NCBI GenBank assembly: GCA_015068395.1 | Contig: SVKP01000048.1 | Location: forward strand, 1 to 44,322 | From: Oscillospiraceae bacterium | GTDB taxonomy: Bacteria; Bacillota; Clostridia; Oscillospirales; Oscillospiraceae | Direction: 5' to 3' | Length of the DNA: 44,322 nucleotides | Part shown: piece by piece, positions 8,808 through 43,862 of the stretch | Layout: every line of letters starts with the position of its first letter | How positions within the stretch are numbered: position 1 is the stretch's first letter | Notes under the pieces: generated by a model | Databases searched by the model: none | What the model was told of the DNA's origin: nothing | The model's input: only the letters and a program-made list of their open reading frames with translations | Position numbers and translations under genes: made by a program

Positions 8808-9593
8808 TTATGCAATCCAGACCGGATGATTGCTTTTCAGCGGCTTGACCATCCGCCAAATCGCCGTTTCTTCCGCATCTGGCCAGTGCTTTTGTATCTG
8901 CTCCGCAATGCGCCGCGCGGATTCCTCCGGCGCTTCACCGTAGGCCGCGGTCACGGCGTCGTAGCCCCAGACCGCCTCGGGAGGGAGCAGGATCGAGACC
9001 GGCATCCCGTACGCGCCGCCGCGCTTGTTCTGTCGGCGCTTGAAATCAATTACGACAAGGTAGAGCTGCATCTGGAGCTCGGTCATGACGCCCGGGAAGT
9101 TCTTTGCACCGTCCTTGCCGAAGCCCGCGAGCTTTTTGAGCTCAGTGGAGAAGACTGAATCGTCCTTCCAGCCGCCGTCACCGTCTGAGAAGACGTCCAT
9201 GATCCGTTTGCTGCGCGCATTCGCCAGCCCCTCGTCGTAGAGGGAATCAAAATCATAGCCGTCGCGGCGGCAGTTGGCAAAGCGGGGAAGCCATTCGAGG
9301 CTGATGAACCCCGCTTTCTTACGGAAAAACTTGCCGTAGGCGACCTCACGGCTGCGGGCGATGATCTCCCGCCACTCCCACGGGTCCTGCTCCGTGTCGC
9401 CCGTCCACCAGAAGTTGGGGGAGACGTGTTCCTCGACGGAGAAGCCCTTGATATCATTGGCAAAGAGCGGCAGGAAGCCAACCTCATTGATCCAGCTTAC
9501 CAGCTCGCGCCAAGAGCGGATGCGGTATGGGTCGTCCCAGTCCATTCCCCGCATGATCCATTCACCGTTCTCAACACTCATGGCAATCGGCAC
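8808..9593 (-). CDS. Conserved hypothetical; resembles AlkZ-related proteins
   Basis: Continuous 261-aa ORF with DTEQDPWEWREIIARSREVAYGKFFRKKAGFISLEWLP; family call is from memory of similar proteins. Start may be the internal ATG at 9581. Confidence 0.55.
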   Translation of the reverse strand: MPIAMSVENGEWIMRGMDWDDPYRIRSWRELVSWINEVGFLPLFANDIKGFSVEEHVSPNFWWTGDTEQDPWEWREIIARSREVAYGKFFRKKAGFISLEWLPRFANCRRDGYDFDSLYDEGLANARSKRIMDVFSDGDGGWKDDSVFSTELKKLAGFGKDGAKNFPGVMTELQMQLYLVVIDFKRRQNKRGGAYGMPVSILLPPEAVWGYDAVTAAYGEAPEESARRIAEQIQKHWPDAEETAIWRMVKPLKSNHPVWIA

Positions 9594-9736
9594 TGAAATC
9601 CATAAACATGGTGATTTTAACTCCTTTTTGCCCGAATGATGGGATTATAGCAAATCCCGGAGCATTTCTCAAGTCTAAAACAGAGCGTGCGTAAAAATCC
9701 TACACAAATGAGTCAAAGACCGCCATTGGTAAGGGC

Positions 9737-9765
9737 TTGCAATACAGGGGGTATTTTGTTATAAT
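9737..9765 (+). promoter_or_regulatory. Sigma-A-type promoter
   Basis: TTGCAA (9737-9742), 17-bp spacer, TATAAT (9760-9765). Confidence 0.8.
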
Positions 9766-9771
9766 TAATTA

Positions 9772-10044
9772 ATCTAGAAAAGGGAAATTTTTATTTTATG
9801 GATAGCCGCGTACAATCACAAAGCAGGCAAGCAGACATAGGACTGCCTCTTTTTACTGCTCAAATTCCTTAATCGCGCGTCGTGCCAGCGGGGTTTATCC
9901 CCGTTGGTTACGGTGCGCTTTTTTGCTCCGAGGCGGCGTCCCGCACAGTTCGGTAACACGCGTATATAGGGCAGAACGGTTTAACCGTCAAAAATGCCGG
10001 AACAGAATCAACGAAGAGGTAAAAAACTACGAGGAGTGAAAACA
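9772..10044 (+). ncRNA. Candidate structured leader RNA / small RNA upstream of the DUF3574 gene
   Basis: About 270 nt between a strong promoter and the next ATG; contains a terminator-like hairpin (9875-9924) and an alternative pairing GTTAC..GTGCG / CGCAC..GTAAC (9907-9957). Confidence 0.55.
9875..9924 (+). terminator. Terminator-like hairpin inside the leader
   Basis: GCGCGTCGT gc CAGCGGGG tttat CCCCGTTG gtt ACGGTGCGC then TTTTTT. Confidence 0.65.
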
Positions 10045-10488
10045 ATGAAAAAGAACGAAAATCTTGCGATCGTCATTTCGATCCTGAGCCTTATCTGCTC
10101 GGCGGTGTGCGTTGTGCTGCTGCTGTCAAACGGCAACGCGCCGAAAAAAACACCGGCGGACACGGGCAAGAGTACCCAGTACGTAATGTATGTCGGAACA
10201 AACGACAAGGACACCTATCAGCCGGAGCACAGCCAGGAGGAGGCGCGCGACATCGTCGACGCCGTGTGCCTGAAGTACTTTGAGGGCTATACGCTTCAGG
10301 ACGCGACAGGGGCGTGGACGGACGAGGCGGGTAATATTACCCACGAGTATACGCTGGTCTGCTATTTTGACGACGCGGACAAGGATACTGTGTACCGGGC
10401 GGCGGACGAGGTCATCAAAGCGCTGAACCAGAATACCGTTCTGATTGAGGAAAATGAGATCTCGATCGAGTATTACGGCGGAAAGTAA
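10045..10488 (+). CDS. DUF3574-like membrane-anchored/exported protein
   Basis: MKKNENLAIVISILSLICSAVCVVLLLS signal anchor; TQYVMYVGTNDKDTYQ and ITHEYTLVCYFDD; RBS GAGGAG. Confidence 0.7.
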   Translation: MKKNENLAIVISILSLICSAVCVVLLLSNGNAPKKTPADTGKSTQYVMYVGTNDKDTYQPEHSQEEARDIVDAVCLKYFEGYTLQDATGAWTDEAGNITHEYTLVCYFDDADKDTVYRAADEVIKALNQNTVLIEENEISIEYYGGK

Positions 10489-39153: not shown

Positions 39154-39225
39154 TCCCGCGTCGTTGAAAAACGGGCGCCTCTTTTCGTATAACTCATTAG
39201 AGCGAAAGAGAAGGAGGTGCTCTAT

Positions 39226-40098
39226 ATGAGAAAGACACTGACAGCAATGCTCACCGGCGCTTTGCTGGGAGCAGCCCTGCTCGGAGGCGCGCAGGCCGTG
39301 GGTGAAACCGTAACCGCTCAGCGCAGCACACAGCGAGTCTATGTTGACGGGGAGCAGGTCCAGATGGAAGCTTATGCCATCGGCGGCGCAAACTATGTAA
39401 AGCTCCGCGACGCCGGCGAAGCAGTCGGCTTCAACGTCTACTGGGACGGCTCGGCGGTACAGGTGCAGAGCGACGCGCCGTACACGGGCGAAGCGCCAGC
39501 TCCGAGGCGGGAAACCGGCAGCCGCATCGTCACGCTGCCCACGGATGGCAGCAAGTATGTCCCCAAGGCAGGCGATGTGATCCGCTGCGACGACGGGTAT
39601 CTCTACGAGATCAAGAATACGCTCAGGTGGGAAAACAATGTATTTTCGCCCGAACCGCTGCCCGAACTCCCGACGCCGAGCTACGATTGGAGCGTATTCC
39701 CAACGGTGGCGCTCCCACAGCCGGAGGCGCGGCACTTCACCACCAACACCGGCGAGGAACTGTTCATCCGCAACCTCTTTGAGACGAGACGGATGCAGTA
39801 CACCATCTACGAGGCGCTGAAAAACGAGCCGAGAGCGTGGCGCGACGGCAAGCCGCTGGCGAAGATCTCGCTGACCATCCCATCGGAGGACGAGCCGTAC
39901 ACCATGTATTTCTGGCCCTGGCGTGAGAGCGAGGACGCAGTTTGTCAAGGGTATTTAAGAAAAACGTGGATCCAGTTTCGGAATCCACGTTTTTCGTTAT
40001 ATGGTTGTGCACCTTTGAAGTTCTTTCACAAATGCATCCACATCACTTTCATCTCGCATAAAAAGATTATAAAAAGCGAGAACAAGGTCTCTGCCTGA
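39226..40098 (+). pseudogene. Stalk-domain (copper amine oxidase N-like) protein truncated at about 39930-39945
   Basis: Signal peptide and stalk VYVDGEQVQMEAYAIGGANYVKLRDAGEAVGFNVYWDGSAVQV; after MYFWPWRESE the frame reads through a terminator and into antisense of the next gene. Confidence 0.75.
39960..39994. terminator. Bidirectional intrinsic terminator at the ICE/defence-island junction
   Basis: AAAAACGTGGAT-ccagtttcgga-ATCCACGTTTTT. Confidence 0.85.
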
Positions 40099-41418
40099 AA
40101 GTGAAAGTGCTTTCATCAAGTCTAAAAACCAGTCATGACAATCTTCGCCACTTAATGACGATAGTATTGTAATTATGCGGTTTTCATCCATATTTAGATG
40201 CAAGCAAAATCTTGAAAGATTGCTGCCATCCTTTATATAATCTCGGAACACATCTTCAATTTGTTTTTCTCCGGGAAGGAAACAGTAATTCCATTGAAAA
40301 TCATTCTTATCAAAACTTGAACGCATATCTCCATCATAGACACCGATAAAATTATATCGAATTTTATCGCTTCGAGGGAATTCCAATCTCTTTGTAATAT
40401 TTGATTCTCCTCCGACCACATCAACAGTATATTTCTTTAGTATATAAGGCGCCTTATCTACAAGAATTGCCATCAAAAGGTCAGATGCGACTTGATCCTC
40501 TACAAATATAGTCCCGACGAAGGTATTATCGACCCCCAAAATATTTTCGGCCGAAAGCCTTTCGTCTGGTATCATAATTGCGGTTTTATCCCCCATACGG
40601 CTCACTATCCTTATATGGTCATTTTGAATATACTGTAATATGTATGGAGAATGCGTTGTCAATATTACTTTTAGATTCTTCTTCTCGATCTGCCTCCCCA
40701 AATAGTTCACAAAGTTTATTTGTGACGAAATGCCAATGTTTGTTTCCGGCTCTTCAATAATTAAAAGTGTTCCTGCCTGAGCACTACTTATGCTCCAAAA
40801 TAAATAGAGAAGAAAGTGTTCTCCTGCACCCATCCCAGCAGAATCATATTGTACGCCCGCTAAGCTTACCCTAAAAAATGGGATAGAGGCGTCTCGCCCA
40901 TCTATATCCTCTAATTCCCAAATGGTGCAAGCCTCATAATCCTTACCAACAATGTAGCTGATATCTCGAATTTCATTTCCCGTTAATTCACGAGGTTCAA
41001 ACTGTTCAATTAGCTCATCAAAATTGGTTTGTCCGATTATGTAGTTCTGAATATTGATACTCTCAATGCAGTCAAGATAAGTAACCCGTCCTTCTGGAAA
41101 CTCTTTGTCGAAAAACCTTTTCGTTTCTTCGTTGGAGCAGTTTATTGCCTGACCATTAATCATTGCCTGACCAGAAACAGTATGCCCATTTATTCGCCGT
41201 TGATCTTGCGCCGATAGTGGTAGGCCAATTACATCTTTAATTGCAGAGATAATCGTGCTTTTACCTACGCCATTTAATCCGCAAATAGCTACAATTTCCG
41301 GCGAAGTTTGAATCTCCCCCAAATTATTTAACCCGTTAAGATTAATAGAAAGAACAGGATTGTTTTGTGCTCTGCTATATATATGTCTCCAGACATCCGG
41401 CACTTCTGCCTTTCTCAT
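39997..41418 (-). CDS. OLD-like protein: ABC-type ATPase with C-terminal TOPRIM-like domain
   Basis: Walker A AICGLNGVGKSTIISAI; GMGAGEHFLLYLFWSI signature-like; Walker B AGTLLIIEEPETNIG; ILTTHSPYIL; C-terminal IFVEDQVASDLL, GVYDGDM, FLPGEKQIEDVF. Confidence 0.85.
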   Translation of the reverse strand: MRKAEVPDVWRHIYSRAQNNPVLSINLNGLNNLGEIQTSPEIVAICGLNGVGKSTIISAIKDVIGLPLSAQDQRRINGHTVSGQAMINGQAINCSNEETKRFFDKEFPEGRVTYLDCIESINIQNYIIGQTNFDELIEQFEPRELTGNEIRDISYIVGKDYEACTIWELEDIDGRDASIPFFRVSLAGVQYDSAGMGAGEHFLLYLFWSISSAQAGTLLIIEEPETNIGISSQINFVNYLGRQIEKKNLKVILTTHSPYILQYIQNDHIRIVSRMGDKTAIMIPDERLSAENILGVDNTFVGTIFVEDQVASDLLMAILVDKAPYILKKYTVDVVGGESNITKRLEFPRSDKIRYNFIGVYDGDMRSSFDKNDFQWNYCFLPGEKQIEDVFRDYIKDGSNLSRFCLHLNMDENRIITILSSLSGEDCHDWFLDLMKALSLSGRDLVLAFYNLFMRDESDVDAFVKELQRCTTI

Positions 41419-42590
41419 TAAAACTTCTCACCCCATCCATACTGTTCAGTGAGAGATTCTAAGACATAATTCATGCTCTCTCTTTCTGTAAATTTTCCAA
41501 TAGCGGACTGAAGAAGCTGTGATTTTCCCAAAAGAACGGAATCACTAAAAAGCGCAATAATAATATCCCTATAAATTATCGACAACGCATCCGTGCTGCC
41601 CATGCTGGATCGTTGGTTAAACGTGTTTAGCATAATTTCCAAAAAAGGTAGATCTTTCTGTAAACGCAAGAAACAGGTTTCATATTCGCCGCCAACAGTT
41701 TTATATTTTCCCTTTATTATGGATCTACAATATTCAAAATTAGCAATGACATAAATAAGCTGTTCCGATCCCACACTCAAATGTTGGCGAATATAGATTA
41801 GCCAGCTAAATAGTGTAGCTTTATTAAAGGAGAATTTGAAATCATCAAATGTACTGATACTATCCATAAAGCTCTTTAGCGTTTTTGATACAGTATCAAT
41901 GCAATCTTTAGAAAATGGTTCGTTCTCGCGATATTTTTTTGATATGTCATTAGATGTTATTTTTCTACTCAGTGTTCCAATCTCCACGACATAACAAAAC
42001 TTTGAAATAATTTCGTCATAGGCTAATCTGGAGTTGGAAAAGCCAATTTTTTCTTTATTTGCACCTAAAGAAGAAAAGTAATCAGATAGACATTTCACCT
42101 GATTTCTTGTTTCTCCAATGTATGCATTTCTTTGCTCCGCAGAGGTTAATGCAGATGGTTGATTTAACCTGTAGAAAAGCTCAGCAGGCTCTTCCGGCTC
42201 ATATTCGGTTAAACGAACAACACTAATAGGATACTTGCGAAATTGCCGTTGCCATCCAACAGGTAAGTCCTTATAGAACATACCATTCAATGCTGATATT
42301 TCACCTGAATATGGTTCAATCGTCCCATCTATGGGAATTTTGTTATCATAAAAATCTCTAATGGTTGCCAGCCTTTGTTGCCCATCAAGAACTTCGTCCA
42401 CATTGTCATGACTCTCGACAACATGAATAGGCGGTATTCTCCAACCCCGCAAAATTGAATCAATAAGCTTCTTTTTCTTCTGTGGTGACCATATCTCACC
42501 TCTTTGGAAACTCGGCTGCAAATCTATATCTTTATCTTGAATTCTTCCTACCAACGTCTGTATTTCGATGTCTGTCGTTTGGCATTTCAT
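41418..42590 (-). CDS. DUF262 (GmrS/ParB-like nuclease fold) protein, no HNH/DUF1524 domain evident
   Basis: LQPSFQRGEIWSPQKKKKLIDSILRGWRIPPIHV, VLDGQQRLATI, LFYRLNQPSALTSAEQRNA. Confidence 0.9.
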   Translation of the reverse strand: MKCQTTDIEIQTLVGRIQDKDIDLQPSFQRGEIWSPQKKKKLIDSILRGWRIPPIHVVESHDNVDEVLDGQQRLATIRDFYDNKIPIDGTIEPYSGEISALNGMFYKDLPVGWQRQFRKYPISVVRLTEYEPEEPAELFYRLNQPSALTSAEQRNAYIGETRNQVKCLSDYFSSLGANKEKIGFSNSRLAYDEIISKFCYVVEIGTLSRKITSNDISKKYRENEPFSKDCIDTVSKTLKSFMDSISTFDDFKFSFNKATLFSWLIYIRQHLSVGSEQLIYVIANFEYCRSIIKGKYKTVGGEYETCFLRLQKDLPFLEIMLNTFNQRSSMGSTDALSIIYRDIIIALFSDSVLLGKSQLLQSAIGKFTERESMNYVLESLTEQYGWGEKF

Positions 42591-42618: not shown

Positions 42619-42648
42619 ATCATACCGAAGTTCAGCTGATCATTTCAA
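42619..42648 (-). promoter_or_regulatory. Candidate promoter for the DUF262-OLD pair
   Basis: Minus strand TTGAAA, 18-bp spacer, TATGAT, about 30 bp upstream of the DUF262 ATG. Confidence 0.6.
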
Positions 42649-42707: not shown

Positions 42708-43832
42708 TTAACAAAGCTCTTTGAAACATAAACTCCGAGTTCGATCTGTACCTCTTGCTAGCGCATTCAATTTGTCATATTCTAAAACTCTTACTAAATT
42801 CTCAATTTGGCTAGCGTTTGATTGCTTAGAGTGATAAAAAATTGTTGTGTGAATATCATCCTCATGCATCTTTTTTTCAAGGTTATTAAACGGTTCTTCA
42901 AGGATTATGTCGCGCAAAATATCTCTGTCTGTAATGTCCAACGAGTGACCTATAAAAAAGATGTTCTTTTCCTCCCGCTCATCTAACCACTTTGTATAAT
43001 CGTAGCTTGTCTGCTTAAAAATCCTTTGATAGTATTTCTTGAATCCAATAAAGTTTACTCGCACGTTTCGTAGTTCCTCATCCAAGTATTCATCAATACC
43101 TAGCACCATATTCGTTTGTTTCCAATTGTGCTGCAAATCTGCTTTTCCATGTACGTAGCAGTATTTTGGCACCTTTGAAAGCGATGGCGCATATACTTTT
43201 TCAAATGTATCAGTATAATTAAATGAGAGAACAGCATCAATGTCCCCGATTTCAGAAATTACATTAAGCCTTTTTGATATAGGTACAAACTCCAAGCAAA
43301 GGCATAAATATATCTCCAAGCAACGAGTAAAGCGAGCTAAATCTTCCAAAAGCTTTTCAATTGTTAGGGAAAGATCATTTGACTTTCTTAAAGTACCATT
43401 GATATCTGCTTTTTCTAACGCGGCATCAAATGAATGCCTTATCATCGCGTACTGAGAATCTTTGCTATTCTCAGGATCGATTGCTTGAATAACCTCTTTC
43501 AAATTTCCTTCACAACCAACCCAGTTTCGCTTAGGAATTCTTAAAGCGCAAAAATACTCAACCCAAATATTTTCTGACATAAGGCTCAGCAATTCGGACA
43601 ATCGCTTATCTGATTTAATTTCGGCATCATTCATACATTTTAGGCAAAAATCCCTAAAGCTATCGTTCTCTTCGCAAAGTTTTGACCGATCCACCAATTT
43701 ACGATACCCAGGGAGATCACTTGGGTAGGCAATATGAGTATGCAACACTTTCAAAAAATCCAAGAAATTATCATATCCCGTTGGTAACCCATGTGCCTTA
43801 TCAAATCCATTTCCAATCACGAGTATATTCAT
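42708..43832 (-). CDS. AbiH-like (bacteriophage abortive infection family) protein
   Basis: MNILVIGNGFDKAHGLPTGYDNFLDFL; VLSFNYTDTFEKVY; KYCYVHGKAD; IFFIGHSLDITDRDIL. Confidence 0.88.
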   Translation of the reverse strand: MNILVIGNGFDKAHGLPTGYDNFLDFLKVLHTHIAYPSDLPGYRKLVDRSKLCEENDSFRDFCLKCMNDAEIKSDKRLSELLSLMSENIWVEYFCALRIPKRNWVGCEGNLKEVIQAIDPENSKDSQYAMIRHSFDAALEKADINGTLRKSNDLSLTIEKLLEDLARFTRCLEIYLCLCLEFVPISKRLNVISEIGDIDAVLSFNYTDTFEKVYAPSLSKVPKYCYVHGKADLQHNWKQTNMVLGIDEYLDEELRNVRVNFIGFKKYYQRIFKQTSYDYTKWLDEREEKNIFFIGHSLDITDRDILRDIILEEPFNNLEKKMHEDDIHTTIFYHSKQSNASQIENLVRVLEYDKLNALARGTDRTRSLCFKELC

Positions 43833-43862
43833 TTTACACCTTGCACCCACTTTCTAATAGTT

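Follow-up and report, generated by a model that had tools for sequence, protein, structure and literature searches.

Two adjoining genes in a stretch of DNA from an Oscillospiraceae bacterium (44,322 nucleotides, which we call the window) probably make up a single two-component anti-phage module, in which a DUF262 protein would act as the sensor that gates an OLD-type nuclease. Why read two neighbours as one device? The reading draws on five independent pairs falling into clades with compatible branching, on a sharp gap in DUF262 profile scores, on invariant NTPase, Walker A/B, H-loop and TOPRIM motifs with fold matches to OLD and GajA, on the company that the pairs keep (AbiH and HsdS in the window, Gabija and a Pf-like prophage elsewhere), and on the known behaviour of DUF262, HEC-04/IbfA and OLD relatives. 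Against it we have weighed that there are only five complete pairs, that the ATPase of one of them (L069) is just 21% identical to that of the window, that a metal-B ligand is not conserved, that global TM-scores are about 0.3 and that the N-terminal part of the DUF262 model has low confidence. What we say below on defence activity, on complex formation, on the trigger, on the direction of control and on the substrate is proposed by analogy with characterised relatives and should be read as such.

Both genes lie on the minus strand: the DUF262 gene (41418..42590; 390 aa, a GmrSD_N, ParB/Srx-like NTPase by Pfam, PADLOC, motifs and model) and, following it, the gene for an OLD-type ABC ATPase fused to TOPRIM (39997..41418; 473 aa, by Pfam, PADLOC and fold matches). 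A check of the window sequence showed that the preliminary description had the coordinates and strand of both genes right. It was right, too, that the DUF262 stop and the ATPase start overlap as TAATG (41416..41420, minus strand; the junction reads TTTTAATGAG), the overlap being a single base, and an overlapping stop and start of this kind—TAATG, TGATG or ATGA—is present in all five pairs. Before the ATPase ATG stands a Shine-Dalgarno-like GGGGTGAG (41424..41437, minus strand; a presumptive role) that sits within the codons of an invariant W-G at the DUF262 C-terminus; TGGGG occurs at the W-G codons shortly before the ATPase start in 5/5 pairs, much like an embedded ribosome-binding site. The embedded TGGGG and the overlaps are consistent with selection for coupled translation. 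As for the promoter of its own that the pair had been credited with, a sigma-70-like TTGAAA-18-TATGAT found by consensus scan does stand upstream of the DUF262 gene (42619..42648, minus strand), 29 bases ahead of its ATG. Across the region, however, sites of this kind are no more numerous than chance would give (18 vs 13.5 +/- 4.3 in shuffles).

Upstream of the pair on the same strand, and outside it, come an AbiH abortive-infection gene (42708..43850, minus strand; Pfam AbiH 2.7e-37) and then the end of an HsdS gene, a fragment; the downstream neighbour is an unrelated host gene. GC content is 38% across the pair vs 58% in the window up to 39.9 kb, with the step near 40.0 kb. The low GC of the pair together with its AbiH and HsdS neighbours indicates an island of defence genes, low in GC and probably acquired, which reaches the window edge. 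A host-like open reading frame on the plus strand (39217-40098) extends its final codons into this island, and, given where the GC step falls, its end may have been cut or replaced by the island.

The DUF262 protein, by analogy a candidate sensor or switch, matches Pfam GmrSD_N at residues 15-158 (8.2e-21) and has the three motifs named for DUF262 (PMC12137116): FQR at residues 28-30, VLDGQQR at 67-73 and FxxxN at 139-143, all invariant across the five homologues in our alignment. The (D)GQQR motif noted earlier is therefore present, and the accompanying claim that the protein has no HNH domain agrees with Pfam, which by sequence gives GmrSD_N only, with neither DUF1524/HNH in the 390 residues nor any match beyond residue 158; Pfam finds no DUF1524 His-Me nuclease domain in the ATPase partner either. 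The best PADLOC match is NsnA (4e-37). In the structural model the C-terminal 230 residues are all helical and of good confidence, and the N-terminal half is of low confidence because the alignment is shallow. A fold search with this model gave nothing significant, and a profile search of the PDB gave only a trace match to the DUF262 entry 7p9k (E 0.66).

The partner is a candidate effector nuclease, judging from its motifs and predicted fold. Its N-terminal domain belongs to Pfam AAA_15/AAA_21 and its C-terminal stretch has no Pfam family. Walker A (GLNGVGKS, 47-54), Walker B (LIIEEPE) and an H-loop (TTHSP) are all there, as the preliminary description had said of the Walker motifs, and the ABC residues G47..K53 S54, E222 E223 and H256 are invariant in homologues. 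Its further claim, that the C-terminus is TOPRIM, is borne out by motifs, by the modelled order of strands and helices, by fold matches to OLD and GajA and by profile matches to HEC-04 and retron proteins. The TOPRIM domain with its C-terminal helices takes up residues of about 302-473 (40000..40515, minus strand; alignments and model) and contains VED (306-308), YDGD (361-364) and LPGEKQIED; alignments with pair members and with solo HEC-04-like proteins single out E307-D308, D362xD364, LPG 381-383, E388 and H428-D429. The LPG..E and HHD-type motifs are common to both groups with some departures, D308 is invariant in the homologues and E388 nearly so. An AlphaFold2 model built from six sequences (mean pLDDT 80) has strands at 302-306, 330-334, 356-361 and 377-380 alternating with helices, which is the TOPRIM order, and its best fold matches in the PDB are the T. 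scotoductus OLD protein (6p74, 6.5e-13) and GajA, at global TM-scores of only about 0.3, so the domain arrangement either differs or is loosely modelled. PADLOC ranks ATPase-Toprim_I-B, a type I-B retron effector, highest (4.9e-24), and HEC-04 covers most of the length (1.3e-22, residues 141-466); the last 184 residues alone match HEC-04 (4.2e-9), retron ATPase-Toprim (4e-4) and nothing else in the PADLOC library. The metal-A ligands of OLD nucleases are an E and a DxD, with a metal-B ligand at E+4 (PMC7049728). The metal-A set (E307, D362, D364) is invariant in the six sequences; the E+4 position, residue 311, is Ala or Gly in all members, unlike the Ts and Bp OLD proteins. The nuclease chemistry may therefore differ from that of characterised OLD enzymes, and "OLD-type" denotes an architecture and a likely way of working, not full OLD membership. 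In the C-terminal helical part, residues 424-431 (about 40126-40149, minus strand) carry a Gx[DE]xHDxF motif that is kept in the pairs; its counterpart in most solo HEC-04-like proteins is an HH-type motif.

Are the two genes together by accident? The complete pairs are those of the window, L056, L059, L068 and L069, in identical gene order, and they extend from Bacillota to a Pseudomonas-type phage; in this subfamily, five out of five full-length DUF262 homologues have an ATPase-TOPRIM gene after them, which upholds the proposal that the two genes are co-conserved. L056, from a goat-rumen Oscillospiraceae genome, came from the genome-collection scan with a full-length ATPase homologue 51% identical to that of the window, a DUF262 protein that matches the window's from end to end at 64% identity, and TGATG at the junction. 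Viral-contig scans added L059, L068 and L069, each with an ATGA overlap, at DUF262 identities of 40%, 42% and 38% and ATPase identities of 30%, 29% and 21%, respectively. When 115 DUF262 open reading frames were compared, those of the pairs scored 600-641 bits and all others at most 128 bits (the profiles were built from the pair, so the members' absolute scores are in-sample). Only pair members (10 entries, duplicates included) adjoin the pair ATPase, and one other DUF262 gene has a partner matching the ATPase profile: a Menshen NsnB, at 32 bits. In trees that include further DUF262 and ATPase proteins, those of the pairs form single clades (support 100/100 for DUF262 and 96/95 for the ATPase), and the branching of pair members in the two trees is compatible. 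Recurrence in four other genomes, overlap included, makes the pair more than a matter of chance.

The carriers have little in common. The L056 pair lies in a neighbourhood unlike that of the window, with a recombinase-like gene upstream. The L059 pair sits in a predicted provirus of 41.6 kb that also has a cytosine methyltransferase and genes of RusA-like, DnaB-like and ParB-like type. Contig L068 (IMGVR_UViG_2563366737_000001), 11,988 bp long, is for the rest similar to the Pf filamentous phages of Pseudomonas (85.5% identity to Pseudomonas phage 62-2 across 59% of the part used as query). Past a small phage-type regulator gene and one more open reading frame comes the pair, which is cargo of this Pf-like filamentous prophage. 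L069 has a complete Gabija beside the pair (GajA 2e-218, GajB 4e-179); this Gabija (L069:1-3575) is divergent to the pair, and a recombinase-like open reading frame lies further along (9468-10088).

The pair is rare. A sample of 401 genomes of the host family held only the window's own pair and one truncated ATPase copy, class and phylum genome samples held nothing besides the window's own pair, E. coli genomes gave no match to the L069 pair DNA used as query, and phage records gave no full-length match to the pair. Viral contigs scanned with single proteins also gave no match; the pairs there emerged only with alignments. Two fragments were set aside as evidence of pairing: an ATPase that is 50% identical and ends at the contig end (L057:1-810, genome G741) and a 52-residue C-terminal remnant (L058:5911-6183). 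They suggest that in related gut bacteria the pair is decaying or is interrupted by assembly gaps. Plasmid matches to the ATPase, at about 25% identity, were likewise set aside, being solo HEC-04-like genes, split open reading frames or fragments flanked by IS elements, none of which has a DUF262 partner.

How might such a module work? Relatives offer some guidance: NTP hydrolysis by the DUF262 domain of SspE activates its nuclease, and Menshen and Dazbog need their DUF262 genes for defence (PMC10952713); anti-phage activity is reported for the ATPase-TOPRIM proteins HEC-04 and IbfA (PMC12111858); and in other systems an OLD ATPase comes with a partner, for instance GajB or a retron (PMC10568477). 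By this analogy, the DUF262 protein would bind and hydrolyse NTP and sense an infection cue—perhaps phage DNA that is modified or bears some other mark, as a first guess from GmrSD, BrxU and SspE—and its helical C-terminal half would gate the OLD-type partner. The ABC ATPase head of that partner would dimerise on ATP and so license the C-terminal TOPRIM nuclease, which would nick or cut nucleic acid (DNA being likelier than tRNA) and stop the infection. Translational coupling would supply the DUF262 and ATPase-TOPRIM proteins in matched amounts.

Known systems resemble the parts more than the whole, and, judged by profiles, motifs and gene order, the closest are Menshen for the sensor and the layout and HEC-04/IbfA for the effector. 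Menshen also encodes a DUF262 protein without DUF1524 just ahead of an ABC ATPase, and one account has it combining DUF262 and a predicted OLD nuclease (PMC10952713), so the general idea of DUF262 joined to an OLD-type ATPase is already published. Is the pair, then, simply a divergent Menshen, its DUF262 protein being NsnA and its ATPase-TOPRIM protein being NsnB fused to the effector NsnC? The NsnA match (4e-37) is the best that PADLOC gives for the DUF262 protein, and the order of DUF262 before ABC ATPase is that of a Menshen locus. Yet Menshen has three proteins, its DUF3696-type ATPase having no TOPRIM domain and NsnC standing apart, and the pair has two genes. A Methylobacterium plasmid has DUF262, DUF3696-type ATPase and NsnC-like genes in a row, which is the Menshen layout, and at another locus Pfam finds DUF3696 and no TOPRIM in NsnB and no family in NsnC. 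The window ATPase has no DUF3696 by Pfam, scores weakly against NsnB (1e-13), far below its matches to HEC-04 and retron ATPase-Toprim, and belongs to a clade separate from NsnB; the pair DUF262 clade lies apart from the one sampled Menshen NsnA, itself on a long branch. The ATPase C-terminus gave no NsnC match, even at E 5, and a search with one NsnC model found no such protein in the window's genome (G000). Both trees place the Menshen proteins outside the pair clades. We hold this identity to be quite unlikely. Retron type I-B effectors (Class 3 OLD) share the profile that tops PADLOC for the window ATPase, but no reverse transcriptase was found among the neighbours of the window pair, which has a DUF262 gene instead. 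Gabija (Class 2 OLD) likewise couples an OLD ATPase-TOPRIM protein with a partner gene, and GajA ranks near the head of the fold matches, but its partner is the UvrD-like helicase GajB and the pair ATPase is not GajA by sequence; the GajA and GajB near the L069 pair are a separate, complete Gabija. PARIS (Class 4; AriA with AriB, or a fusion) was rejected, as AriA and AriAB score below ATPase-Toprim_I-B and HEC-04 and a DUF262 gene is present. GmrSD, BrxU and SspE have a DUF262 domain with intact NTPase motifs and carry a DUF1524 His-Me nuclease, whereas in the pair the nuclease would be a separate TOPRIM protein. The profile libraries and literature searched, which do not include the paper on Menshen variants (NAR 2025, gkaf357), hold no two-gene form whose ATPase-TOPRIM is fused and HEC-04-like; that paper might report a DUF262-OLD pairing. 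Within that same scope the parts are NsnA-like and HEC-04/retron I-B-like by PADLOC and no described system matches the whole pair, which bears on the question of cataloguing that the preliminary description had raised.

Could the effector instead be a toxin, an RNase of the TOPRIM type that the DUF262 protein restrains and that infection releases? We consider this unlikely. In its favour, PARIS pairs OLD-type ATPases with TOPRIM tRNases, AriB cutting tRNA (PMC12839542), and translational coupling fits a guarded toxin. Here, however, a single protein contains both ATPase and TOPRIM, an arrangement shared with OLD, GajA and HEC-04; where members of OLD and GajA have been assayed, they cut DNA (PMC10568477); and GmrSD-type DUF262 domains turn nucleases on, not off (PMC10952713). 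It is much harder to believe that a single-gene HEC-04/IbfA-like defence merely adjoins an unrelated DUF262 gene. IbfA does work cloned alone, HEC-04 is described as one protein (PMC12111858) and distant relatives are found without DUF262; HEC-04/IbfA share with the pair the ATPase-TOPRIM architecture and the VED, DxD, LPG..E and HHD-type motifs. But they are single genes, and in 5/5 complete pairs an overlapping DUF262 gene is present: all complete members of the ATPase subclade directly follow the same DUF262 subfamily, ends overlapping, in neighbourhoods unlike one another, and they form their own clade in a tree with the sampled solo HEC-04-like proteins. Least credible of all is that the pair serves a mobile element in its replication or its repair. 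Some OLD-family proteins do have house-keeping roles, as reported for Cran1 (PMC12796447), but the pair is rare and sporadic, Gabija, AbiH and HsdS adjoin it, and its carriers—a Pf-like filamentous prophage, a 41.6-kb provirus and chromosomal islands—are unlike one another.

If the pair is a sensor-gated nuclease module, as we prefer, it would join a family of OLD contexts that already includes single-gene, Gabija, retron and PARIS forms. We lean, by a little over even chances, toward a new context class in which an ATPase-TOPRIM nuclease is switched by a DUF262 NTPase sensor where other classes use a helicase or a retron, and which prophages would have carried from phylum to phylum. The gene partner decides the class of an OLD nuclease, and a review asks how many classes and systems there are (PMC10568477); the pair would add a partner outside the classes of that review and tie a DUF262 sensor to a nuclease that is not DUF1524. 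Were this class true, it would show how DUF262 sensors combine with unrelated nucleases and, once confirmed, would make a GmrSD-type NTPase that switches a nuclease in trans directly testable. As cargo of a Pf-like filamentous prophage, the pair is also a candidate weapon in conflicts between phages.

DUF262 relatives within the host family that we set aside have other partners, for example a cytosine methyltransferase or a kinase. At L042:3536-5408 and L039:3406-5434, in the same family, DUF262 is directly followed by a protein that matches defence profiles of the kinase type (PD-T4-6, mad6). At L041:3677-6454, a cytosine methyltransferase and an NsnA-like DUF262 protein (1.7e-60) are followed by a 222-aa protein with no PADLOC match, a trio that may be a modification-linked DUF262 system.
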